NCBI GenBank assembly: GCA_945901045.1
Contig: CAMDKK010000018.1
Location: forward strand, 1-60,004
DNA from: Limnohabitans sp. Rim8
GTDB lineage: Bacteria > Pseudomonadota > Gammaproteobacteria > Burkholderiales > Burkholderiaceae_C
Direction: 5' to 3'
Length of the DNA stretch: 60,004 nucleotides
Both the position numbers and the translations under genes were made by a program. Positions 33,470 through 50,748 of this stretch are shown here, piece after piece (positions within the stretch are counted from its first letter, which is position 1; each line of letters begins with the position of its first letter). The notes below the pieces were generated by a model that saw only the letters and a program-made list of their open reading frames with translations, made no database searches and was not told the DNA's origin.

Positions 33470-34207
33470 ATGCGGCAATCTGCACATTTCATTTTCCACG
33501 ACAGCCCCATGCCGCTGTATGCGCAGTTGTCCGATTTACTGCGGCAGCGCATAGCGCGTGGCTTATGGAAACCCGGTGACAAAGTCCCCACTCTGGAAGC
33601 CTTGGTGGAAGAATTTCAGGTCGCACGGGTGACCGTTCGGCAAGCGGTTGACATCCTCACCCGAGAGGGGTTGTTGTCTCCGCAACGGGGGCGTGGCACT
33701 TTTGTCACTGAAAAAGCCCCCACGGAAAGATCGCTCAAACTGGAAACTTCCCTGCAAGGCTTGGCAGAGGCTTACCGTCACGACAAACCCCAATTGAGTT
33801 TGATCGAAGAAACCGGCGTGGTGCCAGAATTGGAACCAGCCGATGGCCATGCAGCGCCAGCCTACCAACATTTAAGGCGTGTCCATTCCCGAGCGGGAGA
33901 GGCCTACTGCGTCGCCTCCATTTACTTGGACAAACGGGTCTTTCTGCTGGCACCTAAGCGTTTTCGCCAAGAAACCGTGGTCCCCGTGCTGATGGACATG
34001 CCCCAGGTGAAGATCGCCACCGCTCAGCAGACATTGCGCATTGGCACCGCCGATGTTGAGCTGGCAAGCTTGCTTCATATTCCCCTGAATTCGCCTGTGG
34101 CTGAAGTCAGACGCATCTTTGTCTCGCCGGATGGAACCGTGCTTTACCTGGGCAACATCACTTACCGCGGCGATTTCATTCAATTTGAAATGAAACTCAC
34201 CCTTTAA
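33470..34207 (+). CDS. GntR-family regulator, HutC/UTRA subfamily
   Basis: 245 residues. The winged helix (PLYAQLSDLLRQRIARGLWKPGDKVPTLEALVEEFQVARVTVRQAVDILTREGLLSPQRGRGTFV) is followed by a UTRA ligand-binding domain from about residue 95 (ending VRRIFVSPDGTVLYLGNITYRGDFIQFEM). HutC-type regulators are usually repressors relieved by a pathway intermediate. It leads into the sulfatase/dehydrogenase block and is its natural controller. Three AT-rich promoter regions of that block carry short palindromes it could bind. Confidence 0.92.
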   Translation: MRQSAHFIFHDSPMPLYAQLSDLLRQRIARGLWKPGDKVPTLEALVEEFQVARVTVRQAVDILTREGLLSPQRGRGTFVTEKAPTERSLKLETSLQGLAEAYRHDKPQLSLIEETGVVPELEPADGHAAPAYQHLRRVHSRAGEAYCVASIYLDKRVFLLAPKRFRQETVVPVLMDMPQVKIATAQQTLRIGTADVELASLLHIPLNSPVAEVRRIFVSPDGTVLYLGNITYRGDFIQFEMKLTL

Positions 34208-34293
34208 GCTCGCACGGCGCAAGCTTGTTTGAATCTGCTTTAATCGTTATTTTTCGACCGACCCAGCTTCACCCGACTTACAAAGAACTAACA

Positions 34294-34307
34294 TTCTATC
34301 AATAGAA
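34294..34307. promoter_or_regulatory. Palindrome upstream of the BetC-like sulfatase
   Basis: TTCTAT-CA-ATAGAA is a perfect 6-bp inverted repeat about 75 bases before the sulfatase start, in AT-rich promoter DNA. It is a candidate operator. AATAGAAC here resembles AATAGGAC near 42171 in another promoter of the same block. Confidence 0.35.
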
Positions 34308-34380
34308 CCTTTTGGGTTACACTCAGGTTTGAACTCTTTGCTACCCGGGGCACGCCCATTCACATCACTGAAAATGATCG

Positions 34381-35964
34381 ATGAACAAAACCACCCGACC
34401 TCAACCCAATATTATTTTGCTCATGGCCGATCAATTGGCCGTGTCTGCGCTGCCAGCGTATGGCAACGCGGTTGTGCAAGCACCTCACTTGAGCCAACTT
34501 GCTGCGCAGAGCGTGGTCTTTGACAGTGCTTACTGTAACTTTCCCATTTGCGCGCCTTCACGTTTTTCCATGCTGTCAGGGCGTTTACCGCACAGCATTG
34601 CGGCCTATGACAATGCCTCCGAATTTCCGGCGTCCATTCCCACCTTGGCGCATTACCTGCGGCATGCAGGCTACCGCACGATTTTGTGCGGCAAGATGCA
34701 CTTCATCGGCCCGGACCAATTGCATGGGTTTAACGAGCGTTTAACCACCGACATTTACCCGGCCGACTTCAGTTGGACACCTGACTGGCTCAAAGGGCCC
34801 GCCTTCCGTCCCACCGGCGTGAGCATGCGACCCGTATTGGAATCTGGCCCCTGCGTGCGCAGCATGCAAGTGGACTATGACGATGAAGTGGAATACCGCG
34901 GCGCACAATGTTTGTATGACTTGGCAAGATCGCCCAATCCAGAGCCCTTCTTCCTCACCGTTTCATTTACGCACCCCCATCCCCCGTTTGTATCGCCTCA
35001 AAAGCATTGGGATTTGTACCGAGAGGAAGATATCCCACCGCCCAAGGTGGCCCCTATTGCATTTGAAGATCTGGATCCGCACAGCCAATGGCTTTACACC
35101 GCGCACGCCCAAGACATTTACAGCGTCTCGCCAGAAGATGTGCAACGCGCACGCCATGCGTATTACGGCATGGTCAGCTATGTTGATGAAAAAATAGGCC
35201 GCATCTTGGCGGTTTTGAAAGAAACCCAACTGGACGACAACACGGTGGTCGTTTTTTGCGGAGACCACGGTGAGATGCTGGGCGAGCGGGGTATGTGGTT
35301 CAAACAAAGTTTTTACGAGTCCTCCGTGCGCGTTCCTTTGATGGTCTCGATGCCCAGCCGTTTTGCACCCGCTCGCGTTTCAGCGCACGTGTCTTTGGTG
35401 GATCTGCTGCCCACCTTCTTGGATTTGGCCTATGCGGGTGCCCCACCTGAACCTGTGGGGCCATTGGATGGTCACAGCCTGATTCCTCTGGCGGAAGGGT
35501 CTGAACCCCACAGCCAACGTGTGGTGATCTCTGAGTACAGTTCTGAAGGCGTTTGCGCCGCATCACGCATGCTGCGCGATGGCCCCTGGAAGTACATCTT
35601 CACCCACGGTCTGCCACCGATGCTCTTTAACCTGGACACAGATCCTGATGAACTCCACGACCTTGCCGGTCAAGCAGACTTTGCCCACATGGAGCAACAA
35701 TTGCACGCCCGTTTGATTGAAAACTGGGATCCGGCGCAAGTGCATGAACGTATTTTGGCAAGCCAACGTGAGCGTTTGTTCTTGGCAGAAGTGGCCAACA
35801 CTTCGAGTCAATCGCCCAACTGGGCTTTTCAGCCTTTTGTAGATGAAAGCAAGCGCTTCATTCGCGGCTCAGGCAGTGCGGGGCCGACCAGTGTGAAATC
35901 GCGCGCACGCTTTCCTTATGTCGAGCCAGTGCAGCCTGACAAACCCGCAGGCACGCCGAGCTGA
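34381..35964 (+). CDS. Sulfatase of the choline-sulfatase (BetC) family
   Basis: 527 residues. The sulfatase signature is complete, with formylglycine precursor Cys57 in CAPSRFSMLSGR (C-x-P-S-R...GR) and metal ligands in MADQ and FCGDHGEMLGERG. Beyond the general fold it carries BetC-specific stretches: GKMHFIGPDQLHGFNERL followed by TTDIYPADFSWTPDW, MQVDYDDEV, and the BetC C-terminal domain (RILASQRERLFLAE, WAFQPFVDESKRFIRG). BetC hydrolyses choline-O-sulfate to choline and sulfate in the cytoplasm. No signal peptide is seen. The nearby GMC and aldehyde dehydrogenases could oxidise the alcohol released; the true substrate is unproven. Confidence 0.87.
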   Translation: MNKTTRPQPNIILLMADQLAVSALPAYGNAVVQAPHLSQLAAQSVVFDSAYCNFPICAPSRFSMLSGRLPHSIAAYDNASEFPASIPTLAHYLRHAGYRTILCGKMHFIGPDQLHGFNERLTTDIYPADFSWTPDWLKGPAFRPTGVSMRPVLESGPCVRSMQVDYDDEVEYRGAQCLYDLARSPNPEPFFLTVSFTHPHPPFVSPQKHWDLYREEDIPPPKVAPIAFEDLDPHSQWLYTAHAQDIYSVSPEDVQRARHAYYGMVSYVDEKIGRILAVLKETQLDDNTVVVFCGDHGEMLGERGMWFKQSFYESSVRVPLMVSMPSRFAPARVSAHVSLVDLLPTFLDLAYAGAPPEPVGPLDGHSLIPLAEGSEPHSQRVVISEYSSEGVCAASRMLRDGPWKYIFTHGLPPMLFNLDTDPDELHDLAGQADFAHMEQQLHARLIENWDPAQVHERILASQRERLFLAEVANTSSQSPNWAFQPFVDESKRFIRGSGSAGPTSVKSRARFPYVEPVQPDKPAGTPS

Positions 35965-36043
35965 ATCGTCTGAAACGGATCCGATTCAGGTCGACTCCGT
36001 TTCAGCGATCACCCATGGCATCGTTGTCGAGCGACGCCATGTT

Positions 36044-37219
36044 TCAAGGACAGGCCCTTTGAATCACGGCCAGTTCGGGCACGACCCCCAGGCCGGGTTC
36101 ATCACCCAAATCGATCCAGCCGTCTTGCACTTTTTGAAATGGCGGGGCCAACAGACTGCGTAAAACGTTCTCGTTGCTATCGACTTCCAACATGCCATCA
36201 CCCCCTGCCGCAGCCAAGACATGCGCCGAAGCCATTAAACCCAAACCCGCCCCCAGAAAGTGCGGGCAAAAAAGCAGCCCCATTTCTCTGATGCGTTGAA
36301 TCACGGGCCAACAGCCTGAGATCCCGCCCCACTTGGCCACATCGGGTTGCACCACATCCAACGCTCGGTTGTGCAGGGCCGCCTCAAAGGCATCACGACC
36401 TAAGATGTTTTCGCCGGCGGCCAATGGAATTGCACAGTGGTCACGCAACTGCAGCCATTCATGCCAGGGGCGATCCGCGCGCAAGGGCTCTTCGAGCCAG
36501 CCCAGCTTCAGTGGCGTCAATGCGGCCAGCATTGCGGTGGCTTGTTCTAGATTCCAAGCCTGGTTGGCGTCCACCATCAAGGGAGCTTCAGGGCCCAACC
36601 ATTCGCGCAAGTCACATGCATTGCGTGCATCGAGCACAGGGTCAAATCCGATTTTGAGCTTGAAAGCGCGATAACCCTCACGGTGTTTGGCTTTTACAAC
36701 AGCCAAGGGACCGTCTGGGTTGATGCCACTGGCATACACGGGAACGCGTGATCGAACGCCGCCCAGGACTTGGTAAAGCGGCAACCCCGCTCGCCGTGCA
36801 CATAAATCCCAGAGTGCCAAATCCACGCCCGCAATGACTTGCGCCAAAGGCCCTGGCTCGCCAGATTGAATGGCCAATACAGCCGTTTGACGCGTTGCGG
36901 CCTGATACGCCTGCGCCGGATCGGCCCAATCTCGCTGTAACAGCAAAGGCGCCACAACAGTTTCCAAAAGCTTCGCCCGATGCTCTGCCCCGCAAGCAGG
37001 AAAGTTGCACCAAATTTCTCCCCAGCCCACCGCACCATCGCTGGTTTGAACACGCACAAACACAGCGGGCCGGTCTTTCATGATGCCAAAGGACGTGCGC
37101 ACGGGCACCGCACTGGGGCTTCTGAACACATAGGCCTGCACATCGGTGATGTGAAGCGACAACTGCTCAGCCAGCACAACACCGGGTGCTTCGGAAGTGG
37201 GTAAGTTTTGAATTTTCAT
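36044..37219 (-). CDS. Enolase-superfamily acid-sugar dehydratase, mandelate racemase subgroup
   Basis: 391 residues. The N-terminal capping domain is followed by a barrel with Lys187 and Lys189 in FKLKIGF, metal ligands Asp217 (VDANQAW), Glu243 (WLEEPL) and Glu270 (AAGENI), and the Asp293/His320 dyad (QPDVAKWGG; CPHF). The KxK motif plus the His-Asp dyad place it in the mandelate racemase subgroup, most of whose members dehydrate aldonic or uronic sugar acids. The substrate cannot be predicted. It is divergent from the GMC oxidoreductase, with a shared promoter region containing TATGGTA. Confidence 0.88.
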   Translation of the reverse strand: MKIQNLPTSEAPGVVLAEQLSLHITDVQAYVFRSPSAVPVRTSFGIMKDRPAVFVRVQTSDGAVGWGEIWCNFPACGAEHRAKLLETVVAPLLLQRDWADPAQAYQAATRQTAVLAIQSGEPGPLAQVIAGVDLALWDLCARRAGLPLYQVLGGVRSRVPVYASGINPDGPLAVVKAKHREGYRAFKLKIGFDPVLDARNACDLREWLGPEAPLMVDANQAWNLEQATAMLAALTPLKLGWLEEPLRADRPWHEWLQLRDHCAIPLAAGENILGRDAFEAALHNRALDVVQPDVAKWGGISGCWPVIQRIREMGLLFCPHFLGAGLGLMASAHVLAAAGGDGMLEVDSNENVLRSLLAPPFQKVQDGWIDLGDEPGLGVVPELAVIQRACP

Positions 37220-37230
37220 TATTAATCCTA

Positions 37231-37250
37231 TGGTATGGCTTATAATACCT
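37231..37250. promoter_or_regulatory. Candidate operator in the divergent dehydratase/GMC promoter
   Basis: TATGGTATGGCTTATAATACC contains GGTAT and ATACC as inverted half-sites about 8 bases apart. The 7-mer TATGGTA recurs in inverted form (TACCATA) at 42163-42169, in the promoter region between the second sulfatase and the Bug protein. Shared control by the HutC-type regulator is an inference. Confidence 0.35.
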
Positions 37251-37334
37251 TAAAATAATCCTACATTTTTTGACGCGCTGGTGTTTCGCCCCAACACCAG
37301 CGAATGCCCTAAGCCCACGCACATCGAAACTGAC

Positions 37335-38957
37335 ATGGACAAAACTATAAAATCCGGATACGACTACATCATTGTGGGCGCAGGTTCAGCTGGCTGTGTT
37401 GTGGCCAACCGCTTGAGTGAGGACCCGGCTTGCCGTGTACTGTTGTTAGAGGCAGGTCAGGCGTCACAAGGGTTTTGGGTTCGCTTACCCATAGGTTACT
37501 TTCGCACCATCAACGACCCACGCTACGCCCTCCATTTTCCATTACAAGCGCAAGCTGAGACCGACAACCGTCAAATGAGTTGGCCGCGAGGTCGGGTTCT
37601 GGGCGGCTCCAGTGCCATCAATGGCCTGTTGTATATACGCGGGCAACATCAAGACTTTGATGACTGGGCCAAGCTGGGTGCACACGGCTGGGGCTACCGC
37701 GACGTACTGCCCTATTTCAAACGCTCTGAAAAATACCAAGGTGGTGCCAGCGAATTTCACGGTGCGCAAGGTGAGTTGGGGGTGTCCAATCTGCGCAACA
37801 ACCATCCTTATTGCGAAGCCTGGTTGCAGGCCGCACAAGAGGCGGGTCATCCTGCCACCGATGACTTTAACGGCGCGCAATCGGATGGCGTGGGGCGTTA
37901 TCAGCTGACTCTGCGCGGTCACTGGCGCTGTGACGCTGCCACCGCATTTCTCTCATCTGCGCGTTCCAGGAAGAACCTGACCGTCATCACTGAGGCCCAT
38001 GTTCGCAGGATCATTTTGGAACAAGGTCGAGCCGTCGCAGTGGAGTGGGAAAAAGCCAGCGAAGTCCTGTCCGCACGTGCCGATGCCGAAGTGATTCTCT
38101 CAGCCGGTGCCTTGCAATCGCCTCACCTGCTGCAACTGTCAGGGATTGGACCGGCTGCCTTATTGCAGCAGCACGGCATCCAAGTGGTCGTGGATGCGCC
38201 AGAGGTTGGTGCGAATCTGCAAGACCATTACCAGGCCCGGGTGATTGTCAAATTAAAAAAACGTCACTCCCTGAATGACGACATTCGCAATCCTCTGAAA
38301 CTGGTGCAAATGGGGGCCCAATGGTTGTTCAAGCAAAGCGGTCCCTTGACGGTCGGCGCCGGACAGGTGGGCGGTTTGGCGCGCACACACTACGCCAGCA
38401 GTGAGCGTGCGGATGTCCTGTTCAACGTGATGCCCTTGTCTGTCGACAAACCCGGTGATGCTTTGCATCGCTTCTCGGGCTTTTCAGCCTCCGTAACCCA
38501 ATGTCGCCCCTTGTCGCGCGGTTCGGTGCAATTGCAATCGGCGGATCCTTTTGCCACACCGCGCATCGTGTCCAACTACTTGCAAGAACCCGAAGATGCC
38601 CGGGTTCTGGTCGCAGGCTTGCAGCAATTGCGCGACATTTACAACCAGCCGGCTTTCAAAGACCTCAAGACCAACGAAGAATACTTCCCAGGCAACGAGG
38701 TCATCACCGCGGCGCAACTGGAACAGTTTGCCCGCAAAAAAGGGGGCACCGTGTACCACCCCGTTGGCACCTGCCGGATGGGGGGCGATCCCAACGCCGT
38801 GGTCGATGCCCGCTTGAGGGTCCATGGGGTTCAGGGTCTGCGCGTTATCGATGCCTCCGTCATGCCCCGCATCGTCTCCACCAATACCAATGCAGCAGCC
38901 ATCATGATTGGCGAAAAAGGCGCAGCCCTGATTTGCGAAGACGCTGCTCGCGCCTGA
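37335..38957 (+). CDS. GMC-family FAD-dependent alcohol dehydrogenase (choline dehydrogenase-like)
   Basis: 540 residues from the ATG at 37335. The FAD-binding motif is [16 protein letters not shown], and the GMC signatures are [21 protein letters not shown] and [18 protein letters not shown]. The active-site His is in [10 protein letters not shown], and the Asn region is [11 protein letters not shown]. It oxidises a primary alcohol to the aldehyde and passes electrons to the respiratory chain. BetA (choline dehydrogenase) belongs to this branch, but so do AlkJ-type alcohol dehydrogenases. It is the likely next step after desulfation and is followed 59 bases later by an aldehyde dehydrogenase gene. 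Confidence 0.9.
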
Positions 38958-38972
38958 GCGACGTAGACTCCG

Positions 38973-39002
38973 TTCCTCTCCATTCCTCTCCATTCCTCTC
39001 CA
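38973..39002. repeat. Triplicated decamer between the GMC and aldehyde dehydrogenase genes
   Basis: TTCCTCTCCA occurs three times in direct tandem order, filling most of the 59-base gap before the aldehyde dehydrogenase start. Because the unit is 10 bases and lies outside coding sequence, copy-number changes would alter the spacing of the upstream region and not a reading frame. The C/T-rich run contains CCTCTCC, which is anti-Shine-Dalgarno-like. Confidence 0.8.
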
Positions 39003-39016
39003 TTAAAAGCACATCC

Positions 39017-40459
39017 ATGACCATCCCCTATCCCCGTACGCAGTTGTTCATTAACGGTCACTGGCGTGAGGGCGCGACGGAACGCGTATTGCCTGTTGAC
39101 AACCCGGCAACGGGCCACCCCATTGGCGAAGTGGCCTGTGCCGAAGTCCCTGACCTTGAAGAAGTTGCCGTAGCAGCAGCCAACGGCTTTCAGGTGTGGC
39201 GCCGCATGAGCGCATTCGAGCGTTACAAAATCATGCGCAAAGCGGCCACCTTGCTGCGCGACAGGATCGAATTGATTGCCCAGCTCATGACCCAAGAACA
39301 AGGTAAACCTTTGGCCGAAGCCCGCATTGAAATCAATGCAGGTGCCGACACCATCGACTGGTTTGCTGAAGAAGGCCGCAGAGCCTACGGCCGCGTGATA
39401 CCGGCTCGGCAAGAAGGGGTGTATCAACTGGTCGTTCAAGAACCCGTGGGGCCTGTCGCAGCGTTCACCCCTTGGAATTTCCCGATCGTGCAGATCGCAC
39501 GCAAGCTGTCTGCGGCATTGGCTGCGGGTTGTTCTATGGTCATTAAAGCCCCTGAGGAAACACCTGCCTCCCCCGCCGAATTGGTGCGTGCGTTTGCAGA
39601 TGCAGGTGTGCCGGCTGGTGTCGTGAACTTGGTTTTTGGCGACCCCGCTGAGATATCGACTTACCTGATTGCGCACCCAGCGATTCGGAAAATTTCATTC
39701 ACTGGCTCCACCGTGGTGGGCAAACAATTGGCGAGCTTGGCCGGCCAACACATGAAGCGCATGACGATGGAGCTAGGAGGTCACGCCCCGGTCATCATTT
39801 TTGACGATGCCGATGTGTCCTTGGCCGCCAAAACCATGGCCATGGCCAAGTTTCGCAACGCAGGGCAAGTCTGCATCTCCCCCACCCGATTTTTAGTGCA
39901 AGAGGGAATTTACAAAGAGTTTGTGCAAGCTTTCTGCCACCATGCAAGCGCCCTGCAAGTTGGCAATGGCTTGGACAGCACCAGCCAGATGGGGCCATTG
40001 GCCAACCCTCGCCGCTTGTCGGCCATGGAGGCCATGGTCGCCGATGCACGCGAACACCACAGTGCAGTGCAAGTGGGCGGTGATCGGGTGAAGCGCGAGG
40101 GTCATTTTTGGGCTCCCACCGTGGTGAGCGAAGTGCCATTGGACGCCCGTGCCATGCACGAAGAGCCTTTTGGCCCGCTGGCCATCATCAACCCGTTTGC
40201 CAGCTTCGATCAAGCCATCTCTGAGGCCAACCGCCTCCCCGTGGGTTTGGCAGCTTATGCCTGGACGCGGTCGGCGCAAACCGCGCAGCGAGTTGCTTCG
40301 GCGGTAGAAACCGGCATGATCACCATCAACCATTTGGGCCTGGGCATGCCAGAAACCCCATTCGGCGGGGTCAAAGACTCTGGCTATGGCTCCGAAGGTG
40401 GAAGTGAAGCGCTCACCGCGTATCTGAACCCGAAGTTTGTCTCTCAAGCTGGGCTGTAA
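39017..40459 (+). CDS. NAD(P)-dependent aldehyde dehydrogenase (succinate-semialdehyde dehydrogenase-like)
   Basis: 480 residues starting at [16 protein letters not shown]. Catalytic Glu252 is in MELGGHAP and Cys286 in [10 protein letters not shown]; the Rossmann motif is FTGSTVVG. The C-terminal [14 protein letters not shown] is typical of the GabD/SSADH group. It should oxidise the aldehyde produced by the GMC enzyme to a carboxylic acid. BetB-type betaine aldehyde dehydrogenases are related but lack some of these SSADH features. A much longer frame open upstream is a shadow of the GMC gene. Confidence 0.9.
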
Positions 40460-40548
40460 TCCGCTGCTTGTACTGACTGCGTGATGTCGCGCCCAAGGGC
40501 TCCGAATAGCGTTTGCGCTAACGGGCGGGCTTTCCACTGCTGAGCAGT

Positions 40549-42075
40549 TCAGGGCGCGGGCAGACCCAATCGCAAAAAGGCCTCTGGGGGTGCATCGTTC
40601 TTTCGCATCAAGGCGTCTATCTGAGCCATCAGCCGTGTCTCTGCCTGTGCATCGTGGACAGGATGGAGTTGATGCGGGTCAGCCTCCAGGTCGAACAGCA
40701 CGGTGGTCGTGTCCTCGTAGCCGCTTCCTTGACCGGTGTGGCCCACCGGTTGTCCTTTGGCATTGCGCCGAGCAGGTACTTTCAGTAACGGAACGCCTTG
40801 TGTGAAATTGAAGCCATGCGCCAATTCGGCCTGCGCCAAATCCGCAACTGCAAACATGGATTTCAGATGCATGGGCATCAAGGTGTATTCGTACAAGTCT
40901 TGCTTGGTCATGTCTTGCGGATAGCGAAAGTAGGTGTAGCGTCCGTCGGTGATGTTCGTCCCTGCACCGAACATCCCGTAAAGCGCGGCCTCACGCAACT
41001 GCGTGTCTTGCTCCAGCAGCGGCAAAAGGGAGTGCCCTTCGACCGTTCCAGGCACATCCACGCCATGAAGGTTCAGCAATGTGGGCATCAGGTCGGTTGT
41101 CTGAGTCAGGCTCTGGCGGCGCTCTCCGGCCTTGTGTGCAAAAGCCGGATGCGCAATCATCAAAGGGATGTGTGCAATTTCATTGAAGAAAGGCATGCGG
41201 TTCTTGCCCCACCAATCGTGCTCGGCCAGCAAAAAACCATGGTCGGTGGTCAGCACCACCGTGGTGTCTTTCCACATGGCATGTTGATCCATGTAGTCCA
41301 TCAAGCGACCAAAATACTCATCGCACATGCTCAGCAATGCCGCATAGTTGGCGCGCAACTCCTGCGCCTCAAAGGCGTTTTCTTCATTCCGCTTGTAACG
41401 CGGCCAATCCAGCGTTGGACCCACGTAGCCGCTGGGATAACGTTCACGAAACCGCGCTGGCGCAAAGAACGGTTCATGCGGGTCAAAGCATTCCAGGTGG
41501 AGCACCCAGTTGTCTGACTCGCGATTGATGTCCAGGAATTCCATCGCTGACTTGAAACTGCGCGGGCAACAGAAATCCGCTTCGTCCTTGATGAACTCGC
41601 GATTGACCATCGCTTGCAAGCGCCCATCGTTCGGGCCTTCAGCTTGCTGCATGGGGTGGTACATCTTCTTGAAACGTTCCAGCGGCGGCTGCACCATCGC
41701 CTTCCATTTATCCCACTCTTGGCCGCGGATGAATTCCCATGAGGAATACCGGTTGTGGTAAGTGGCACCACCATCTTCCCAGTAATGGTAGTGATCTGAA
41801 ATCAAATGCGTATAGGTACCTTTGGCGCGGAGCAACTCAGAGAACGACTGATCAAAGGGTTCCAGAGCACCCCAGCTGCGGTGCAGAAAATTGAGTCGCC
41901 CAGTGTGCAAATCGCGCCTCGCCGGCATGCACGGAAGACTGCCGACATAGTGGTTGTCAAAGGTGACGGCACGCTCAGCAAAGCGCTTGAATTGTGGCGT
42001 TGACACATGGGTTCCGCCGTAGCATTCCAGTGCATTGCGCACCAAGGAATCGAACAAAACGAAAATTGTTTTCAA
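40549..42075 (-). CDS. Second sulfatase family protein, distinct from the BetC-like one
   Basis: 508 residues. The full signature CMPARRDLHTGR supplies the formylglycine precursor Cys49 (C-x-P-x-R...TGR). Metal-site motifs are FDSLVRNALECYGG at the N-terminus and TTDHGFLLAEHDWWGKNRMPFF. No signal peptide is evident, so it is probably cytoplasmic. The overall sequence resembles the arylsulfatase/phosphonate monoester hydrolase type and not BetC. The start is TTG at 42075, since no ATG is in frame upstream; a weak GGAT precedes it. It is divergent from the Bug-type binding protein gene. Confidence 0.85.
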   Translation of the reverse strand: MKTIFVLFDSLVRNALECYGGTHVSTPQFKRFAERAVTFDNHYVGSLPCMPARRDLHTGRLNFLHRSWGALEPFDQSFSELLRAKGTYTHLISDHYHYWEDGGATYHNRYSSWEFIRGQEWDKWKAMVQPPLERFKKMYHPMQQAEGPNDGRLQAMVNREFIKDEADFCCPRSFKSAMEFLDINRESDNWVLHLECFDPHEPFFAPARFRERYPSGYVGPTLDWPRYKRNEENAFEAQELRANYAALLSMCDEYFGRLMDYMDQHAMWKDTTVVLTTDHGFLLAEHDWWGKNRMPFFNEIAHIPLMIAHPAFAHKAGERRQSLTQTTDLMPTLLNLHGVDVPGTVEGHSLLPLLEQDTQLREAALYGMFGAGTNITDGRYTYFRYPQDMTKQDLYEYTLMPMHLKSMFAVADLAQAELAHGFNFTQGVPLLKVPARRNAKGQPVGHTGQGSGYEDTTTVLFDLEADPHQLHPVHDAQAETRLMAQIDALMRKNDAPPEAFLRLGLPAP

Positions 42076-42097
42076 TTTTTTACATCCAAAATTTAAG

Positions 42098-42137
42098 TTT
42101 CATTGAGCCTGCTCTCATTGAACTGATCTCAATGAAA
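42098..42137. promoter_or_regulatory. Long inverted repeat with a middle half-site in a divergent promoter
   Basis: TTTCATTGAG (42098-42107) and CTCAATGAAA (42128-42137) are perfect 10-bp inverted repeats, and CTCATTGAA (42114-42122) between them repeats the half-site. The array lies 23 bases upstream of the sulfatase start and about 85 bases before the Bug gene, a good position for a repressor or activator of both. Confidence 0.5.
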
Positions 42138-42221
42138 AATTGGTCATTTTCAAGATATACGGTACCATAAATAGGACTATCGGTTTTTAATCTCGCCTGT
42201 CCCTTTGTCTGAAAGCCCTCA

Positions 42222-43214
42222 ATGAAAAAGATTGTTTTAAAAAGCACGCAGCGCACTCTTCAATGTGTCTTAGCGGCCGCAAGTTTGCTGTTGTCCCTGA
42301 CTGTCGGCGCGGAAACTTATCCGGCAAAGCCGATCCGCGTGGTGGTCCCTTGGCCTGCGGGTGGGTTGGTGGATGTGGCGGCACGTCAACTCGGCCAGCG
42401 GATGCAGATGGCATTGGGCCAACCCATGGTCATCGACAACAAGGTGGGTGCAGGCGGAAACCTCGGTGCAGAAATGGTTGCCAAGGCGCCCGCGGATGGT
42501 TACACCTTGTTGTTCACGACGAGCGCACTGACCATGAACGCCGCGATGCGTCCCAAGATGCCTTTCAATGCCGTGAAAGATCTGGATCGCATTGCCGTAG
42601 TGGCCTACGCGCCGGCCATTTTGGTGGTAAGTCCCAGCAGCAACATCAAGTCATTGCAAGACTTGATCCAAGTTGCGCGCAACCAGCCTGGTAAATTAAG
42701 TTACGCATCGGCAGGCATTGGCTCTCCGGCTCACCTGATGGGTGAACTGTTCAAGTCGCGTAACAACGTCAACGTTTTGCACGTGCCCTACACAGGCGCG
42801 CCGGCGGCCATGAACGACCAGATCGCTGGCCTCATCGACTATCAATTTGCCAACGCAGCCGTTGCGCTGCAGCAAATCAAGGCGGGCAAGGTACGCGCAT
42901 TGGCCGTGACCAGCACCCAACGCATGCCAGGCCTCCCCGAGGTGCCGACCATGAGCGAGGCCGGAATGGACAAGTTCGAAGTCCAACAATGGTTAGGGCT
43001 TCTGGCCCCCCAAGGGATGCCGCCCGCAGTGATGGAGCACTTGGTCAAAGAAGTCAATAAAGTGCTGGCGCTCAGTGATTACAGCCAATCCCTGCAGAGC
43101 TCAGGTGCAACCAGCGCCAAGCCCGGCAAGCCCGTTGAGTTTGAAACGTATTTCCAACAAGATCTGGCGCAATGGACGAGTGTGGTCAAGGCCGCCAACA
43201 TTCAGCCTGAGTAA
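42222..43214 (+). CDS. Tripartite tricarboxylate transporter substrate-binding protein (Bug/TctC family)
   Basis: 330 residues. A signal peptide ends near SLTVGAETYP. The Bug domain opens with YPAKPIRVVVPWPAGGLVDVAARQLGQRM and has MVIDNKVGAGGNLGAEMVAKAPADGYTLLF. Bug proteins are very abundant in Burkholderiales and bind carboxylates or other small solutes. The TctA/TctB membrane partners are not in this window, so this is an orphan gene, as is common. Its link with the sulfatases suggests it may bind the substrate or a related acid. Confidence 0.92.
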   Translation: MKKIVLKSTQRTLQCVLAAASLLLSLTVGAETYPAKPIRVVVPWPAGGLVDVAARQLGQRMQMALGQPMVIDNKVGAGGNLGAEMVAKAPADGYTLLFTTSALTMNAAMRPKMPFNAVKDLDRIAVVAYAPAILVVSPSSNIKSLQDLIQVARNQPGKLSYASAGIGSPAHLMGELFKSRNNVNVLHVPYTGAPAAMNDQIAGLIDYQFANAAVALQQIKAGKVRALAVTSTQRMPGLPEVPTMSEAGMDKFEVQQWLGLLAPQGMPPAVMEHLVKEVNKVLALSDYSQSLQSSGATSAKPGKPVEFETYFQQDLAQWTSVVKAANIQPE

Positions 43215-45843: not shown

Positions 45844-46713
45844 TCAAGGCAGCAGTTTGAAGGGGATGACCTTTTGGGTTTGTTCGCCCAGCCCTTCGAT
45901 GCCCAAGGTCATTACATCGCCTTTTTTCAGGAAAACCGGCGCCGGTTGGCCGTCTTTCTTGATCCCACTGCCCACGCCGGGTGGCGTGCCCGTGGTGATG
46001 ATGTCACCGGGCTCGAGCGTCATGAACTGGCTCACATAGCTGACCAATTTGGCCACACCAAAAATCATGGTCTTGGTGTTGCCGGTCTGCATGCGCACGC
46101 CATTCAAATCGAGCCACATGGACAGGGCTTGCGGGTTGGGCACTTCGTCGCGCGTCACCAGACAAGGGCCGATGGGGCCGAAGGTGTCGCAACCCTTTCC
46201 CTTGTCCCAGGTACCGCCGCGTTCGAGTTGGTATTCACGCTCGCTCACATCGTTGATGGTGCAATAACCGGCCACATAACCCAGTGCGTCTTTCTGCGAA
46301 ACGTAGCGCGCGCGGGTGCCAATCACCACGCCGAGTTCAATTTCCCAATCGGTTTTCTTGGAGCCCTTGGGCAACATCACGTCGTCGTTGGGACCTTGAA
46401 TGCAGCTGATAGCCTTCATGAAGACGATCGGCTCTTTCGGGATCGGCATGCCCGACTCCGCAGCATGGTCGGCGTAGTTCAGACCGATGGCGATGAACTT
46501 ACCAGTTTGCGCCACAGGGCAGCCCATGCGGGGCTTGCCGCGAACCAAGGGCAGTTTGTCGATCTTGACTTTGGCCAGCTTGGCCAGCGCTTTGTCTGAC
46601 AACTGGTCGGGTGTCACGTCTTTGATCACGCTGCTCAGATCGCGCAATTTGCCTTGCGCGTCGATCAGACCCGGTTTTTCTTTGCCAACTTGGCCATATC
46701 GAACGAGTTTCAT
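45844..46713 (-). CDS. FAH-family hydrolase, likely 2,4-diketo-3-deoxy-L-fuconate/rhamnonate hydrolase
   Basis: 289 residues. The fumarylacetoacetate hydrolase core is visible: AIGLNYADHAAESGMPIPKEPIVFMKA, the metal-binding Glu pair in TDWEIELGVVIG, YCTINDVSEREYQ and the TTGTPPGVGSG loop. This subgroup (with GTWDKGKGCDTFGPIGP) includes hydrolases that split 2,4-diketo-3-deoxy sugar acids to pyruvate and lactate in non-phosphorylative L-fucose or L-rhamnose pathways. The two adjacent SDR genes support this. ATG at 46713 follows AAAGG. Confidence 0.85.
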   Translation of the reverse strand: MKLVRYGQVGKEKPGLIDAQGKLRDLSSVIKDVTPDQLSDKALAKLAKVKIDKLPLVRGKPRMGCPVAQTGKFIAIGLNYADHAAESGMPIPKEPIVFMKAISCIQGPNDDVMLPKGSKKTDWEIELGVVIGTRARYVSQKDALGYVAGYCTINDVSEREYQLERGGTWDKGKGCDTFGPIGPCLVTRDEVPNPQALSMWLDLNGVRMQTGNTKTMIFGVAKLVSYVSQFMTLEPGDIITTGTPPGVGSGIKKDGQPAPVFLKKGDVMTLGIEGLGEQTQKVIPFKLLP

Positions 46714-46760
46714 GCAGTGAGCCTTTCAAATAAAAAATAGATCTTAACGCGTCGACAACA

Positions 46761-47519
46761 TCAGTAGGTAGATCGACCTCCCGACAAATCAAACACCGCA
46801 CCCGTAGAGAACGAACAATCTTCTGTACATAACCAGGTGACCATGGCCGCAATTTCTTCGGGCTGTCCAAAACGTCCCATGGGGATTTTGGACAGCATGA
46901 ACTGAATGTGCTCCGCCGACATTTGGTCAAAGATCGCCGTTTTGACCGCGGCCGGAGTGACGCAATTGACCCGCACGCCGGTGTCCGCCAACTCTTTGCC
47001 AAGCGACTTGGTCAGGGCAATGACAGCCGCTTTGCTGGCACTGTAGGCGCTGGCATTGGGGTTGCCATCTTTGCCTGCCACCGAGGCGATGTTCACGATG
47101 CGGCCGAAGGCACGGCCACGCATGTGCGCCGAGATTTCACGGCAGCAATAGAACAGGCCATTTAAATTCACGTCCATGACCTGGCGCCAAGCGTCTACCG
47201 GGTAGTCCCACACTTTGACGTTGGGGCCGGTGATGCCCGCGCAATTGACCAAGGCGTCCACCGAGGCCAAGGCCACCGTGGTTTGCGTGGCGTGCACCAC
47301 TGAAGCGTGATCGGCCACATCCACACTTACGCAGTGCACCGCAGCACCAGGGTGCTCAGTCTGCAACTGCGCGCAGGCGGCTTGCATGCCTTGGGCATCG
47401 CGGTCCCACAGCGTGACCTGCGCACCTGAAGCCAGCATGCGCTGGGCAATGGCAAAGCCCAGGCCGGTGGCGCCGCCCGTGATCACGCCGTGACGGCCCT
47501 TCATGTCGAGTTGGTTCAT
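46761..47519 (-). CDS. SDR-family dehydrogenase (sugar or keto-deoxy acid dehydrogenase)
   Basis: 252 residues. The NAD-binding motif is GVITGGATGLGFAIA, NAG is in DALVNCAGITG, the catalytic Ser/Tyr/Lys set is in NIASVAGKDGNPNASAYSASKAAV, and the end is FDLSGGRSTY. Close relatives include 2-keto-3-deoxy-L-rhamnonate 4-dehydrogenase and sugar 1-dehydrogenases. Within this block it could oxidise the free sugar or the keto-deoxy acid. It is 13 bases after the second SDR gene and 47 bases before the FAH gene. Confidence 0.85.
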   Translation of the reverse strand: MNQLDMKGRHGVITGGATGLGFAIAQRMLASGAQVTLWDRDAQGMQAACAQLQTEHPGAAVHCVSVDVADHASVVHATQTTVALASVDALVNCAGITGPNVKVWDYPVDAWRQVMDVNLNGLFYCCREISAHMRGRAFGRIVNIASVAGKDGNPNASAYSASKAAVIALTKSLGKELADTGVRVNCVTPAAVKTAIFDQMSAEHIQFMLSKIPMGRFGQPEEIAAMVTWLCTEDCSFSTGAVFDLSGGRSTY

Positions 47520-47532
47520 TGCAGTGCTTTCG

Positions 47533-48282
47533 TTAAATGGTCATACCGCCATCAACCATGTAGGCGTTGCCGGTTGCGAAAATAGATTCGTCAGACGCCA
47601 AGAAGGTGATGATGGGCGAAATTTCATGGGCTTGCGCCAAACGACCCATGGGCTGGCGGTTGATGAAGTCCTTGCGGGCCTGCACCGGATCGTCGTAACT
47701 GTTGATCCGGTCTTGCAGCGAGGGGGTGTCAACGGTACCGGGGCAAATGCAATTGCAACGAATGCCTTGCTTGACGTAATCGGCCGCCACGCTCTTGGTC
47801 AGGCCGATCACGGCCGCTTTGCTTGCGCCATAAGCAAACCGATTGGGTAAACCGCGCACACTGGAGCAGACACTGGCCATGTTGATGATGCTGCTGCTTT
47901 GCCCCGTGGCCTGGAATTGCGCCAACATTTTGGGCAGCACCGATTGAATCATCCAAAATTGGGAGCGCACATTCAAGTTGAAAGCAAAGTCCCAGTCCTC
48001 GTCGGTGGCATCCAGAATCGGACCGTTATGCACATAGCCTGCGCAATTGAACACAATATCAATGTGGGGCAATGCCGCCACCTGCGCCTGGATTGCCCCC
48101 TTGTTCATGACATCCAGCACGGCGGTGTGGACATTCGCGACGCCTGCATAGTCTTTGAGCAGTTGTGCATTCAGATCGGTCGCATACACCGTGGCACCTT
48201 CGGCCGCCATGCCCAGCACGGCCGCTTTGCCAATGCCTTGCCCTGCCGCTGTGACCAGTGCGATTTTTCCTTGCAGTCTCAT
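47533..48282 (-). CDS. SDR-family dehydrogenase, probable 2-keto-3-deoxy-L-fuconate dehydrogenase
   Basis: 249 residues. TAAGQGIGKAAVLGMAAEGATVYATDLN binds NAD, and NMASVCSSVRGLPNRFAYGASKAAVIGLTKSVAADYVKQGIRCNCICPGTVDTPSLQDRI is the catalytic part. This pattern matches the DHRS6/BDH2-like group that includes 2-keto-3-deoxy-L-fuconate dehydrogenase of Xanthomonas. It would oxidise C4 of the keto-deoxy acid to the diketo acid that the neighbouring FAH-family enzyme cleaves. The AGGAG ribosome-binding site is strong. Divergent from the FadR-type regulator. Confidence 0.85.
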   Translation of the reverse strand: MRLQGKIALVTAAGQGIGKAAVLGMAAEGATVYATDLNAQLLKDYAGVANVHTAVLDVMNKGAIQAQVAALPHIDIVFNCAGYVHNGPILDATDEDWDFAFNLNVRSQFWMIQSVLPKMLAQFQATGQSSSIINMASVCSSVRGLPNRFAYGASKAAVIGLTKSVAADYVKQGIRCNCICPGTVDTPSLQDRINSYDDPVQARKDFINRQPMGRLAQAHEISPIITFLASDESIFATGNAYMVDGGMTI

Positions 48283-48389
48283 GGGGGTTCTCCTGAAATT
48301 TAGACCGATAGCGTCGAGCCTTCATGGATGGGGTTTATCCCGATCCTGCGAGCCTTGACGCCGCTGTAATAAGTATGCCACTATTGTGC

Positions 48390-48406
48390 AATTGGTCGGA
48401 CCAATT
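48390..48406. promoter_or_regulatory. Operator for the FadR-type GntR regulator
   Basis: AATTGGTC-G-GACCAATT is a perfect 17-base palindrome with one central base, located between the divergent SDR and GntR start codons. It fits the GntR/FadR half-site GGT...ACC and is close to known ExuR/UxuR-type sites. It can control both transcripts of the block. Confidence 0.8.
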
Positions 48407-48435
48407 TACCCATACGTGTATTCCCTGATCTTTGC

Positions 48436-49143
48436 ATGAAACTGCCTGTTCAAGAACCGCCGCGCCTTTACCGCCAAATTGCTGAGCAATTGCGCGAGTG
48501 GGTGCGTGCGAGCGGCTTCAAAGTGGGCACCCGTTTGCCCGCAGAACGTGAACTGGCTTTGCAATGGGGCGTAAGCCGCTCTTCTTTGCGTGAAGCCGTG
48601 ATAGCACTGGAGGTTGAAGGTGCTATTGAAGTTCGCATTGGCTCGGGCATCTATGTGACCGAAACAGCGCTGACCGCCCCCATCAACCCTGACCACCCCG
48701 ATGTCCGTGATTGGGGACCCCTCGAGGTGATGCAAGCCAGAGAACTGATCGAGTGCGAAATGGCCGCCTTGGCAGCGGCGCATGCCAAGCGCAGCGATTT
48801 GCGAGCCATGGCCAAAGCCCTGATGCAAATGAAAAAAGATGCCGGTCGGAATGAAGTGCCCAAGCAGGGTGATGAGGCCTTTCACATGGCTATCGCCAAG
48901 GCGTGTGGCAACAGCGTTCTGGTGGACACTTTGCAGGGCTACTGGCAGTCGCGCAATGGTGTGATATTTGAACGATTGAGTGATTATTTCGAAAGCCCGG
49001 ACGCATGGCAAGCGGCCATTGCAGAGCACGAAACCATTTACCAGGCCCTGTGTGAACACAAAGCCAGCGCGGCCAAACGGGCCATGAAGCATCACCTGAA
49101 GCAAACCCATAAACGCTACAACGCCCATTGGCGCAGCGTTTGA
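48436..49143 (+). CDS. GntR-family regulator, FadR subfamily
   Basis: 235 residues. The winged helix (RLYRQIAEQLREWVRASGFKVGTRLPAERELALQWGVSRSSLREAVIALEVEGAIEVRIGSGIYV) is followed by an FCD all-helical effector domain (LEVMQARELIECEMAALAAAHAKRSD, FHMAIAKACGNSVLVDTLQGYW, with His-Asp metal-site residues). FCD regulators sense sugar acids. It begins the divergent plus-strand transcript with the UxaA-family and Ldh2-type genes and most likely represses the whole block through the 17-base palindrome upstream. Confidence 0.93.
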   Translation: MKLPVQEPPRLYRQIAEQLREWVRASGFKVGTRLPAERELALQWGVSRSSLREAVIALEVEGAIEVRIGSGIYVTETALTAPINPDHPDVRDWGPLEVMQARELIECEMAALAAAHAKRSDLRAMAKALMQMKKDAGRNEVPKQGDEAFHMAIAKACGNSVLVDTLQGYWQSRNGVIFERLSDYFESPDAWQAAIAEHETIYQALCEHKASAAKRAMKHHLKQTHKRYNAHWRSV

Positions 49144-49157
49144 ACTTGAAAGAAACC

Positions 49158-50684
49158 ATGCAAACCTACATACGCCTGCACGCCGCTGACGACGTGGTTA
49201 TCGCCCGCAGCCAATTGATGAGCGGCAGCCAAGTCGAGGGCATTGCCGTGCGCGGATTGATCCCGCCTGGCCACAAAATCGCCACCCGTGCTATCTCAGT
49301 GGGCGAAGCGGTGCGGCGCTACGACCAGATCATTGGCTTTGCAAGCCAGGCGATCGGGCCGGGGGAACATGTGCACGTGCACAATCTGAACATGGGCGCC
49401 GAGAAAGGCAACTTCACAAGAGACTATGCCTTTTGCGCCGACTTGAAACCACCGGCACCCAGGCGCCACGCCACGTTCCAGGGCTTTGTGCGTGCCGATG
49501 GCCGCGTGGCCACGCGCAACTACATTGGCATTTTGTCCAGCGTGAACTGCTCGGCCACCGCAGCGCGCGCCATAGCGGACCATTTTTCAAAATTAACCAA
49601 CCCCTCGGCCTTGGCCGACTTTCCGAACGTCGATGGCGTGGTGGCATTGACCCATGGCACAGGATGCGGCATGGCCACTGAGGGTGCAGGCATGCAGATA
49701 CTGGAGCGCACGCTCGCAGGCTACGCCACCCATGCGAATTTTGCAGGTGCCGTCGTGGTCGGGCTGGGTTGCGAGGCGAACCAACTCCAAACCTGGCTGG
49801 CCCACAGCGGCTTGCAAGAAGGTTCAAGCTTGCACACCTTCAACATCCAAGACACTGGGGGCACAGCCAAAACGGTAGTCAAGGGCATTGAGTTCGTCAA
49901 ACAGATGCTGCCTCAAGCGAATGCAGTACAACGTGTGCCCTGCAGCGTGGAGCACATCGTGGTGGGCCTGCAATGCGGCGGCTCTGACGGCTATTCAGGC
50001 ATCAGCGCCAACCCTGCATTGGGCGCAGCAGTCGATATCTTGGTCGCCCACGGCGGCACGGCCATCTTGAGTGAAACCCCCGAAATTTACGGTGCCGAGC
50101 ATTTGCTCACACGCCGCGCTGTGCGCCGTGAAGTGGGCGAAAAACTGGTCGAGCGCATCCGCTGGTGGGAGCATTACACCGAGATCAACCAAGGCGAGAT
50201 GAACAACAACCCGTCCCCCGGCAACAAAGCCGGCGGCCTGACGACCATTCTTGAAAAGTCCTTGGGCGCAGTCGCCAAAGGCGGAACAACCAACCTTGAA
50301 GCGGTTTACGAGTACGCCGAGACGGTCAAAGCCCATGGCTTCGTTTACATGGACACCCCCGGCTACGACCCGGTCAGTGCCACAGGCCAGGTGGCAGGAG
50401 GGGCCAACTTGATTTGCTTCACCACCGGGCGTGGCTCGGCCTACGGATGTGCGCCCTCGCCTTCGCTGAAACTGTCGACCAACACAGCACTGTGGACCAA
50501 ACAGGAAGATGACATGGACATCAACTGCGGCGACATCGTGGATGGCAAGATATCGATCCAAGACATGGGTGAAAAAATCTTCCAACACATTCTGGACTGT
50601 GCCTCGGGCAAACCCAGCAAGAGCGAAACTCATGGCTATGGTCAAAACGAGTTCGTCCCTTGGCAAGTGGGTGCGGTGATGTAA
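49158..50684 (+). CDS. UxaA-family (altronate dehydratase) sugar-acid dehydratase
   Basis: 508 residues containing both halves of UxaA. The N-terminal SAF domain is at residues 1-95 (YIRLHAADDVVIARSQL, HKIATRAISVGEAVRRYDQIIG), and the C-terminal dehydratase domain has TRNYIGILSSVNCSATAA, ALTHGTGCGM, GLQCGGSDGYSGISANPALG and CFTTGRGSAYG. The family dehydrates D-altronate, galactarate and, in some non-phosphorylative pathways, deoxy-sugar acids such as L-fuconate. Here it would yield the 2-keto-3-deoxy acid for the SDR and FAH enzymes. The start at 49158 follows GAAAG; the gene follows the regulator directly. Confidence 0.9.
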   Translation: MQTYIRLHAADDVVIARSQLMSGSQVEGIAVRGLIPPGHKIATRAISVGEAVRRYDQIIGFASQAIGPGEHVHVHNLNMGAEKGNFTRDYAFCADLKPPAPRRHATFQGFVRADGRVATRNYIGILSSVNCSATAARAIADHFSKLTNPSALADFPNVDGVVALTHGTGCGMATEGAGMQILERTLAGYATHANFAGAVVVGLGCEANQLQTWLAHSGLQEGSSLHTFNIQDTGGTAKTVVKGIEFVKQMLPQANAVQRVPCSVEHIVVGLQCGGSDGYSGISANPALGAAVDILVAHGGTAILSETPEIYGAEHLLTRRAVRREVGEKLVERIRWWEHYTEINQGEMNNNPSPGNKAGGLTTILEKSLGAVAKGGTTNLEAVYEYAETVKAHGFVYMDTPGYDPVSATGQVAGGANLICFTTGRGSAYGCAPSPSLKLSTNTALWTKQEDDMDINCGDIVDGKISIQDMGEKIFQHILDCASGKPSKSETHGYGQNEFVPWQVGAVM

Positions 50685-50748
50685 GTGCCCACTAGGTATC
50701 CACCTGCGCTCTGTAGGACCCTTCCAACCCTTCTTTCAAATTAACGCC

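Follow-up and report, generated by a model that had tools for sequence, protein, structure and literature searches.

We describe here a block of seven genes at positions 33470-43214 of a 60,004-nucleotide stretch of DNA (hereafter the window) from Limnohabitans sp. Rim8 (contig CAMDKK010000018.1, assembly GCA_945901045.1), a draft genome of 4.01 Mb in 126 contigs that is 94% complete. The block encodes a GntR/UTRA transcriptional regulator, a BetC-like formylglycine sulfatase, an enolase-superfamily dehydratase candidate, a GMC flavin oxidoreductase, an aldehyde dehydrogenase (ALDH), a second formylglycine-type sulfatase termed SULF2 and a Bug/TctC periplasmic solute-binding protein; all seven reading frames listed in an initial annotation of the window are intact. 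We propose, with a probability of roughly 0.6, that these genes form a conserved catabolic module by which a polyhydroxylated sulfate ester is first desulfated, then oxidised and finally dehydrated; this ester would not be choline-O-sulfate and would belong to the sugar, sugar acid or polyol sulfates. The multi-gene module recurs in varied orders in two classes of Proteobacteria, which is strong evidence for a real, selected pathway. Sulfate esters hold a large share of organic sulfur and carbon, the fate of which is poorly traced.

Conservation of the gene block

A scan of named genomes for SULF2, in which the best 80 of 500 candidate stretches encoding relatives were kept, yielded 79 loci, several of them short contigs. 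Six partners were scored at identity thresholds chosen for this analysis: the BetC-like sulfatase (40%), GMC protein (50%), dehydratase (45%), regulator (33%), Bug protein (45%) and ALDH (45%). Among the 79 loci, the BetC-like gene was found in 33, the GMC gene in 30, the dehydratase in 26, the regulator in 31 and the Bug gene in 30. At SULF2 identities of at least 64%, 32 of 35 loci contain two or more of the six partners and 27 contain three or more, and a regulator homolog (at least 33%) is present in 28; the three loci with one partner are that of the sister genome G785 (L016, see below) and two contigs measuring 7.2 and 3.5 kb. Below 64% identity, at least two partners were found in 7 of 44 loci, one in 5 and none in 32.

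The gene order differs among these loci. Three of them (L017, L025 and L026) show the order dehydratase, GMC, ALDH, BetC, Bug, regulator and SULF2, and two others (L032 and L036) the order GMC, regulator, dehydratase, SULF2, Bug and BetC. The series in L047 runs from ALDH, GMC, regulator, dehydratase and SULF2 through a TRAP transporter, another SULF2, BetC, a phosphoesterase-family protein and a further sulfatase to a second BetC. In 13 loci (L031, L038, L040, L043, L045, L047, L049, L059, L076, L077, L083, L088 and L091) a BetC-like gene follows SULF2 on the same strand. The partners are thus reshuffled yet kept together, as is expected of a pathway, and the neighbours proved to be conserved across related genomes, a point on which the initial annotation had made its proposal depend. 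A chance neighbourhood was ruled out by this co-occurrence in 32 of 35 loci, as opposed to the rarity of the genes among 399 genomes of the family (the own genome included), where a SULF2 relative was found in 6, a BetC-like relative in 22 and a dehydratase relative in 33 at the thresholds used.

The module is carried by Burkholderiales and SAR116-type Alphaproteobacteria, and the nearest SULF2 proteins among the named genomes come from Burkholderiales and Comamonadaceae metagenome-assembled genomes (MAGs). Cultured carriers of a SULF2 relative include Xenophilus azovorans DSM 13620 and Pollutimonas bauzanensis, in whose fetched stretches no BetC-like gene was seen. Akkermansia and Planctomycetota also appear as hosts, probably through binning errors, because their copies sit among those of Burkholderiales in the tree. 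A plasmid search for near-identical copies found none.

Loss of the choline clamp in the BetC-like sulfatase

The BetC-like sulfatase (527 residues; 34381..35964, plus strand) scores above the cut-off of the choline-sulfatase model TIGR03417 and is 42% identical, over 94% of its length, to BetC of Sinorhizobium meliloti (6fny/6g60; betICBA operon; SulfAtlas S1_12). All 11 catalytic positions compared (D14, Q15, C54, R58, N75, K102, H104, H201, D296, H297 and K309) have their equivalents in the window protein, as do Trp129, Tyr123 and Glu386. In the S. meliloti enzyme, a GW-X13-WYHN hairpin holds the choline, its Trp129 and His145 clamping the quaternary ammonium group, and a gate is formed by Asn146 and Asp500, according to the portion of the structural report used here (PMC9063841); Glu386 has also been tied to choline recognition in the excerpt available of a second study (PMC5870055). 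In the window protein, PTGVS replaces WWYHN and only the Trp of the hairpin is retained, so that both His145 and Asn146 are missing. The residue of the C-terminal gate appears not to be kept either: the Asp500 column, where the tail alignment is uncertain, holds Thr in the window, Asp in 9 of 38 block copies, and Asp or Asn in canonical enzymes. The initial annotation had stated that the protein carries all BetC-specific stretches, which does not hold for the choline-binding hairpin; correcting this error strengthens its conclusion that the substrate is not choline sulfate.

The loss is general among block-linked enzymes. We compared 38 copies (the window and 37 others with an aligned stretch of more than 400 residues at 40% identity or more, leaving out truncated copies such as those of L020 and L035) with 34 canonical-type BetCs, comprising 4 plasmid loci and the 30 best of 61 matches listed, a sample that is biased towards enzymes near to BetC of S. 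meliloti and leaves out matches of 45-51%. Neither His145 nor Asn146 occurs in any of the 38 block-linked copies, whereas both are present in 34 of 34 canonical-type enzymes, all of which carry WYHN. The 11 catalytic positions are intact in all 38 copies, except that a single copy has an X, which cannot be read, at one of them. In a tree of 44 fetched copies, the window protein and two outgroups on very long branches, whose placement is unsure, the canonical WYHN enzymes form one side of a branch supported by 81/97 (below the star of the tool), and the window protein falls in a separate group of 13 rows (100/98). The block-linked copies require four changes on this tree, indicating several non-canonical lineages and not one clade.

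The genomic context points the same way. At least one of betA, betB and betI (at least 45% identity) lies within the short fetched stretch in 22 of 30 canonical genome loci, and the window block has no bet neighbours, since its GMC protein, ALDH and regulator either miss the Bet cut-offs or belong to different families. By Pfam and NCBIfam profile matches, neither BetI nor a choline transporter is among the seven genes, as the initial annotation had noted. An unusual choline-O-sulfate operon, in which BetC, a BetA-like GMC protein and a BetB-like ALDH would make glycine betaine and the other genes would be passengers, draws on the TIGR03417 score, on the retained Trp129 and Glu386, and on the placement of the GMC protein within the choline dehydrogenase subfamily model, though under its cut-off (570 versus 605 bits). 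This explanation is very improbable: WYHN is gone in every block-linked copy, the GMC protein scores 473.8 versus 732.1 bits for BetA (TIGR01810) and the ALDH 364.9 versus 668.6 bits for betaine-aldehyde dehydrogenase (BADH), SULF2 and the dehydratase are recurrent partners, and no BetA or BADH match over the curated cut-off was found anywhere in the draft genome. We rejected it on the clamp residues, these cut-offs and the genome content. As first suspected, and as its lost clamp residues and separate tree group suggest, choline-O-sulfate is unlikely to be what the BetC-like enzyme hydrolyses, and its naming by TIGR03417 is likely an annotation error; that rule labels an enzyme as choline sulfatase even though the part that grips choline is missing.

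WYHN is also missing from six BetC-like copies outside the block (L101, L103 and L154-L157), of which L101 has His145, and L154 and L155 have Asn146. On an Azospirillum plasmid (L101, 6291-11458) such a gene, reading DWSHH, lies between a tauABC-type transporter and tauD. On a Mameliella plasmid (L103, 8995-18756) another, with the hairpin FGVST, directly precedes genes of a DHDPS-family protein, an FAD oxidoreductase, an SDR, an aldehyde dehydrogenase and a proline-racemase-family protein, a set that we take to resemble hydroxyproline breakdown; this is possibly another non-choline function of BetC.

SULF2 and activation of the sulfatases

SULF2 (508 residues; 40549..42075, minus strand), assigned by Pfam, contains the sequence C49-M-P-A-R53. 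C49, P51 and R53 are invariant in 26 of 26 aligned sequences, which fits class I sulfatases, and the C-x-P-x-R signature is present in both sulfatases of the block, as the equivalents of C54 and R58 in the BetC-like protein. Both enzymes are probably cytoplasmic, because neither shows a visible N-terminal signal peptide when its sequence is read. The own genome has 18 sulfatase Pfam matches, two of them further SULF2 relatives (57% and 49%), and seven matches to the family of the formylglycine-generating enzyme (FGE). One of the seven carries GGSFLCSPDYCMRYR (PF03781, 236.6 bits), a motif that presumably marks true FGEs. In addition, FGE-family genes stand beside the block in L073 and L090.

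An AlphaFold model, made of SULF2 only, has a mean pLDDT of 84.8 and a pTM of 0.91. Foldseek matched it to phosphonate monoester hydrolases and sulfatases at 14-20% identity among the 50 matches listed; since these matches do not exceed 20% identity and comprise two kinds of enzyme, they indicate no substrate. The best matches include phosphonate monoester hydrolases (16-19% identity) and the superfamily is described as promiscuous in the part of PMC5870055 drawn on here, so that SULF2, the BetC-like protein or both could instead hydrolyse phosphate diesters or phosphonate monoesters. We give this little credence, as the model matches sulfatases about equally and, in relatives, sulfatases, FGE and sugar transport cluster together.

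Distant SULF2 relatives on three annotated plasmids bear on the kind of substrate. That of Paracoccus seriniphilus lies beside a sugar ABC transporter, a SMP-30/gluconolactonase-family protein, L-rhamnose mutarotase and an aldo/keto reductase; that of Salipiger abyssi beside Tct transporters, a sugar kinase, an IlvD/Edd dehydratase, an FGE-family protein and further sulfatases; and that of Roseibium next to genes for a DUF4432 protein and a sugar ABC transporter. All three are thus accompanied by genes of sugar transport or sugar catabolism, in line with the earlier suggestion of a sulfated sugar.

Other arrangements of SULF2 relatives were observed. On contig C8 of the own genome (L174, 4092-11456), a SULF2 relative (48%), two more sulfatase-family matches and two Bug-type matches stand side by side. 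In a Salaquimonas MAG (G787; L184, 260-14481) a relative of the dehydratase adjoins SULF2-type and other sulfatase matches and UxaA-type pieces. A chloride-channel-family protein of L160, beside FGE and arylsulfatase genes, has 39-42% matches in L058, L061 and L089, and in the first two of these the protein is encoded between an FGE-family match and SULF2; sulfatases may thus be repeatedly associated with an anion channel.

The candidate dehydratase and a sulfatase-free core

The dehydratase candidate (391 residues; 36044..37219, minus strand) belongs by Pfam to the mandelate racemase subgroup of the MR/MLE enolase superfamily. K187-x-K189, D217, E243, E270, D293 and H320 are invariant in 48 of 48 aligned sequences, and we take them to be the KxK base, the three acidic metal ligands and the Asp-His dyad. 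No cut-off of a named acid-sugar dehydratase equivalog was reached, the best being L-talarate/galactarate dehydratase at 129.1 versus 500 bits. The best solved relative is 3ddm (473 bits), which shows the same catalytic motifs in the alignment; being named only a "putative" mandelate racemase/muconate lactonizing enzyme, it did not decide the substrate.

The 14 best dehydratase places outside the own genome (L140-L153), from the 33 of the 399 family genomes with a match, were examined for neighbours. A core of GMC protein, SsuABC-type ABC transporter and regulator accompanies the dehydratase in 12 of these 14 Comamonadaceae-family loci, L150 and L152 being without it, and only one of the 12 (L145) contains SULF2. 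Two plasmids carry the same core: one of Variovorax, and one of Bradyrhizobium that also encodes an arylsulfatase and an FGE-family protein close by. It thus seems that an older core of GMC, SsuABC, regulator and dehydratase was supplemented with sulfatases, gain being the probable direction. That 11 of the family loci have this core but no SULF2 suggests a downstream route held in common.

Import by SsuABC-type systems raises the alternative that a sulfonate or sulfonated sugar acid is the substrate, which the mandelate-racemase-type enzyme would dehydrate, in the manner of SfcF, or from which it would eliminate sulfite, with the sulfatases as accessories. SsuABC-type genes (at least 60% identity) occur not only in the core but also in 12 of the 79 SULF2 loci, both Pfam families of the dehydratase are shared by SfcF, an enzyme of the sulfofucose pathway (in the sections of PMC12421959 considered), relatives of the dehydratase in L158, L161, L165 and L166 adjoin TauE/TSUP-type genes, and a SulP transporter is encoded in the L162 stretch. 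We nevertheless regard a sulfonate as improbable. The TauE/TSUP neighbours belong to more distant dehydratases, neither the window nor any of the 79 SULF2 loci (a set with several short contigs) gave a TauE, TSUP or SulP match at E values up to 1e-15, and the two SsuA-type proteins tested score 116.7 and 111.8 against a family cut-off of 163.5. Two sulfatases and an FGE point to sulfate esters.

On plasmids of Rhizobium (L165, 4125-10923) and Shinella (L166, 2666-10907), the dehydratase relative lies beside a TSUP transporter, a sugar kinase, a tagatose-bisphosphate-aldolase-type protein and an SDR, with an ALDH in L166. These sets resemble, in our understanding, those of sulfoglycolysis, and could hold an unrecognised step.

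The oxidising enzymes and transport

The GMC protein (37335..38957, plus strand) falls in the choline dehydrogenase subfamily by Pfam and NCBIfam and is no BetA equivalog; its start is probably the ATG at 37335 and not the opening of the reading frame at 37281. Similarly, the ALDH (39017..40459, plus strand) probably starts at the ATG at 39017 and not where the frame opens at 38501, the family match beginning at about 39017. Besides its score for BADH, the ALDH is below the NCBIfam cut-off for succinate-semialdehyde dehydrogenase (458.7 versus 646.35 bits). Its closest chains in the PDB are 9zh8, named only "aldehyde dehydrogenase" (639.9 bits), and the alpha-ketoglutaric semialdehyde dehydrogenase (KGSADH) of Azospirillum brasilense, 5x5t (639.7 bits), the closest characterised enzyme by sequence. 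Of the KGSADH pocket, the equivalents of Q160, R163, R281 and C287 are kept, the equivalent of N159 is Val (Asn in Comamonadaceae-type relatives) and the C-terminal segment differs. Q160, R163 and R281 were assigned to substrate binding by docking, as given in the part of PMC5385487 at hand. In sulfolactaldehyde dehydrogenase, two arginines are proposed to bind the sulfonate (PMC10599462, in the excerpt available), and these would correspond to R163 and R281. The substrate of the ALDH is likely an anionic aldehyde.

This closeness to KGSADH allows an order other than oxidation before dehydration. The sulfatases would free a pentose or pentonate, the GMC protein would oxidise C1 to a lactone, the dehydratase would give 2-keto-3-deoxypentonate, and the ALDH would be a true KGSADH ending at 2-oxoglutarate. 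The nearest PDB chains and the conserved Q160, R163 and R281 speak for this main rival. However, no DHDPS-type second dehydratase is encoded in the block, and among the 79 SULF2 loci only one weak match was shown (28%, L033; E up to 1e-15). A look for Q160/R163 in the alphaproteobacterial ALDHs was negative for L077 and L083 and also for L047 and L049, both of which are truncated where their contigs stop; N159 is replaced by Val in the window, and the core stretches that lack sulfatases likewise showed no ALDH. We consider this order unlikely, albeit the most serious competitor of a route in which oxidation precedes dehydration.

The Bug protein (330 residues; 42222..43214, plus strand; Pfam) is one of several transport solutions, since relatives exchange Bug, SsuABC and TRAP/TAXI systems. 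The type of transporter was for that reason not decisive as to the substrate.

Proposed pathway

In the proposed module, the sulfate ester would be imported as an anion by means of the Bug protein here, and of an SsuABC-type ABC or TRAP/TAXI system in relatives. The FGE of the genome would activate two cytoplasmic class I sulfatases, which would then remove sulfate. The BetC-like enzyme is predicted to hydrolyse an alkyl sulfate in a pocket in which another loop (PTGVS in the window) takes the place of the choline clamp, and SULF2 may act on a second position or on a related ester. Upon release, the alcohol would be oxidised to a hydroxy acid by the GMC flavoenzyme and the ALDH, and the mandelate-racemase-type enzyme would dehydrate this acid to a 2-keto-3-deoxy acid for central metabolism. 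The GntR/UTRA regulator presumably controls the module.

Several observations weigh against this proposal. The BetC-like protein passes the choline-sulfatase cut-off with 613.9 versus 433.45 bits; Trp129 is present in all 38 block-linked copies, the window included; and position 386 is Glu in 26 of them, among them the window, Ile in 9 and Asp in 3. No more than 16 of the 79 SULF2 loci showed an ALDH, and no match to it was shown in the sulfatase-free core stretches at E values up to 1e-15. Neither an aldolase nor a kinase or lactonase is encoded inside the block, and no shared operator was detected, the four intergenic regions having no common word longer than 9 bases. The wider SULF2 family (below 64% identity) serves other settings, with 32 of 44 loci partnerless. 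At the thresholds used, the dehydratase, BetC-like gene and SULF2 are absent from five other genomes of the same genus; their presence is therefore patchy. Finally, in G785, SULF2 and the Bug gene are on a different contig from the regulator, BetC-like, dehydratase, GMC and ALDH genes.

The last case was followed along the contigs. SULF2 of the MAG G785 is 96% identical to that of the window, and its SULF2 and Bug genes adjoin genes located at 6.9-16.1 kb in the window, which read as type II secretion-like. The other contig carries the regulator (cut), a second Bug gene and the BetC-like, dehydratase, GMC and ALDH genes, and over 6.1 kb it matches the window at 90.7% identity. Of the two contigs, one stops within the regulator gene and the other shortly after the Bug gene, in each case inside the block, and they may adjoin across an assembly gap. 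The arrangement differs from that of the window whether they adjoin or not. About 24 kb of the window (16.1-40.5 kb) is missing at the SULF2 site of G785 (L016), with the regulator-to-ALDH part on the other contig, and the difference points to rearrangement or insertion.

A broader reading goes further, and we advance it only tentatively. It holds that Comamonadaceae and marine-type (SAR116) Alphaproteobacteria possess an undescribed mineralisation pathway for an organic sulfate esterified at two different positions, or for a group of related sulfates of polyols, sugars and sugar acids, in which sulfatases joined the existing GMC/SsuABC/dehydratase core, and that a share of the genes named choline sulfatase belongs to it. 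If this is true, choline-sulfate turnover is overestimated in genomes carrying such genes. Aerosol-derived tetrol sulfates would be conceivable, if purely speculative, substrates.

Comparison with known systems

The kinds of enzyme are known, and two further systems resemble the module in part. The slf operon of the Psychrobacter plasmid pP62BP1 combines an alkyl sulfatase, a GMC protein and an aldehyde dehydrogenase with a like logic of desulfation, alcohol oxidation by the GMC enzyme and aldehyde oxidation, predicted there as well. In contrast to the window, it employs an SdsA1-like sulfatase of metallo-beta-lactamase type, a CoA ligase follows and there is no dehydratase, as far as the available part of the report describes it (PMC3346939). 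The sulfofucose pathway of Paracoccus wurundjeri (SfcH/D/F/E) likewise employs a PF13378 and PF02746 dehydratase on a sulfur-bearing sugar acid. However, it handles a sulfonate and not a sulfate ester, by a dehydrogenase, a lactonase and an aldolase, and no sulfatase is named in the sections at hand (PMC12421959). Formylglycine sulfatases, GMC protein, ALDH and enolase-type dehydratase are combined in none of betICBA, slf and the sulfofucose route, within what these partial sources cover. No description of the module was found in the accessible portions of the open-licence literature searched; it is real, conserved and apparently uncharacterised. The KGSADH of A. brasilense belongs to a sugar pathway without sulfatases.

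Regulator and adjoining genes

The regulator (245 residues; 33470..34207, plus strand) was initially described as HutC-type. Its GntR and UTRA domains agree with this by Pfam, but it misses the HutC equivalog cut-off (81.9 versus 220 bits) and scores under the cut-offs of all NCBIfam models listed. Sites of the GTNTANAC type are absent from the four intergenic regions examined.

The sugar-acid cluster adjoining at 45.8-51.8 kb was not counted into a joint operon with the block, as only scattered weak matches to it were found in the SULF2 loci. This cluster (45844-51816) encodes an FAH hydrolase (NF053535, 473.3 versus a cut-off of 500), two SDRs, a regulator that reads as GntR-type, a UxaA/GarD-type dehydratase and a malate/lactate-dehydrogenase-family protein. 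Members of the FAH and UxaA/GarD families occur in the non-phosphorylative pentose route, according to the part of PMC6336799 considered.

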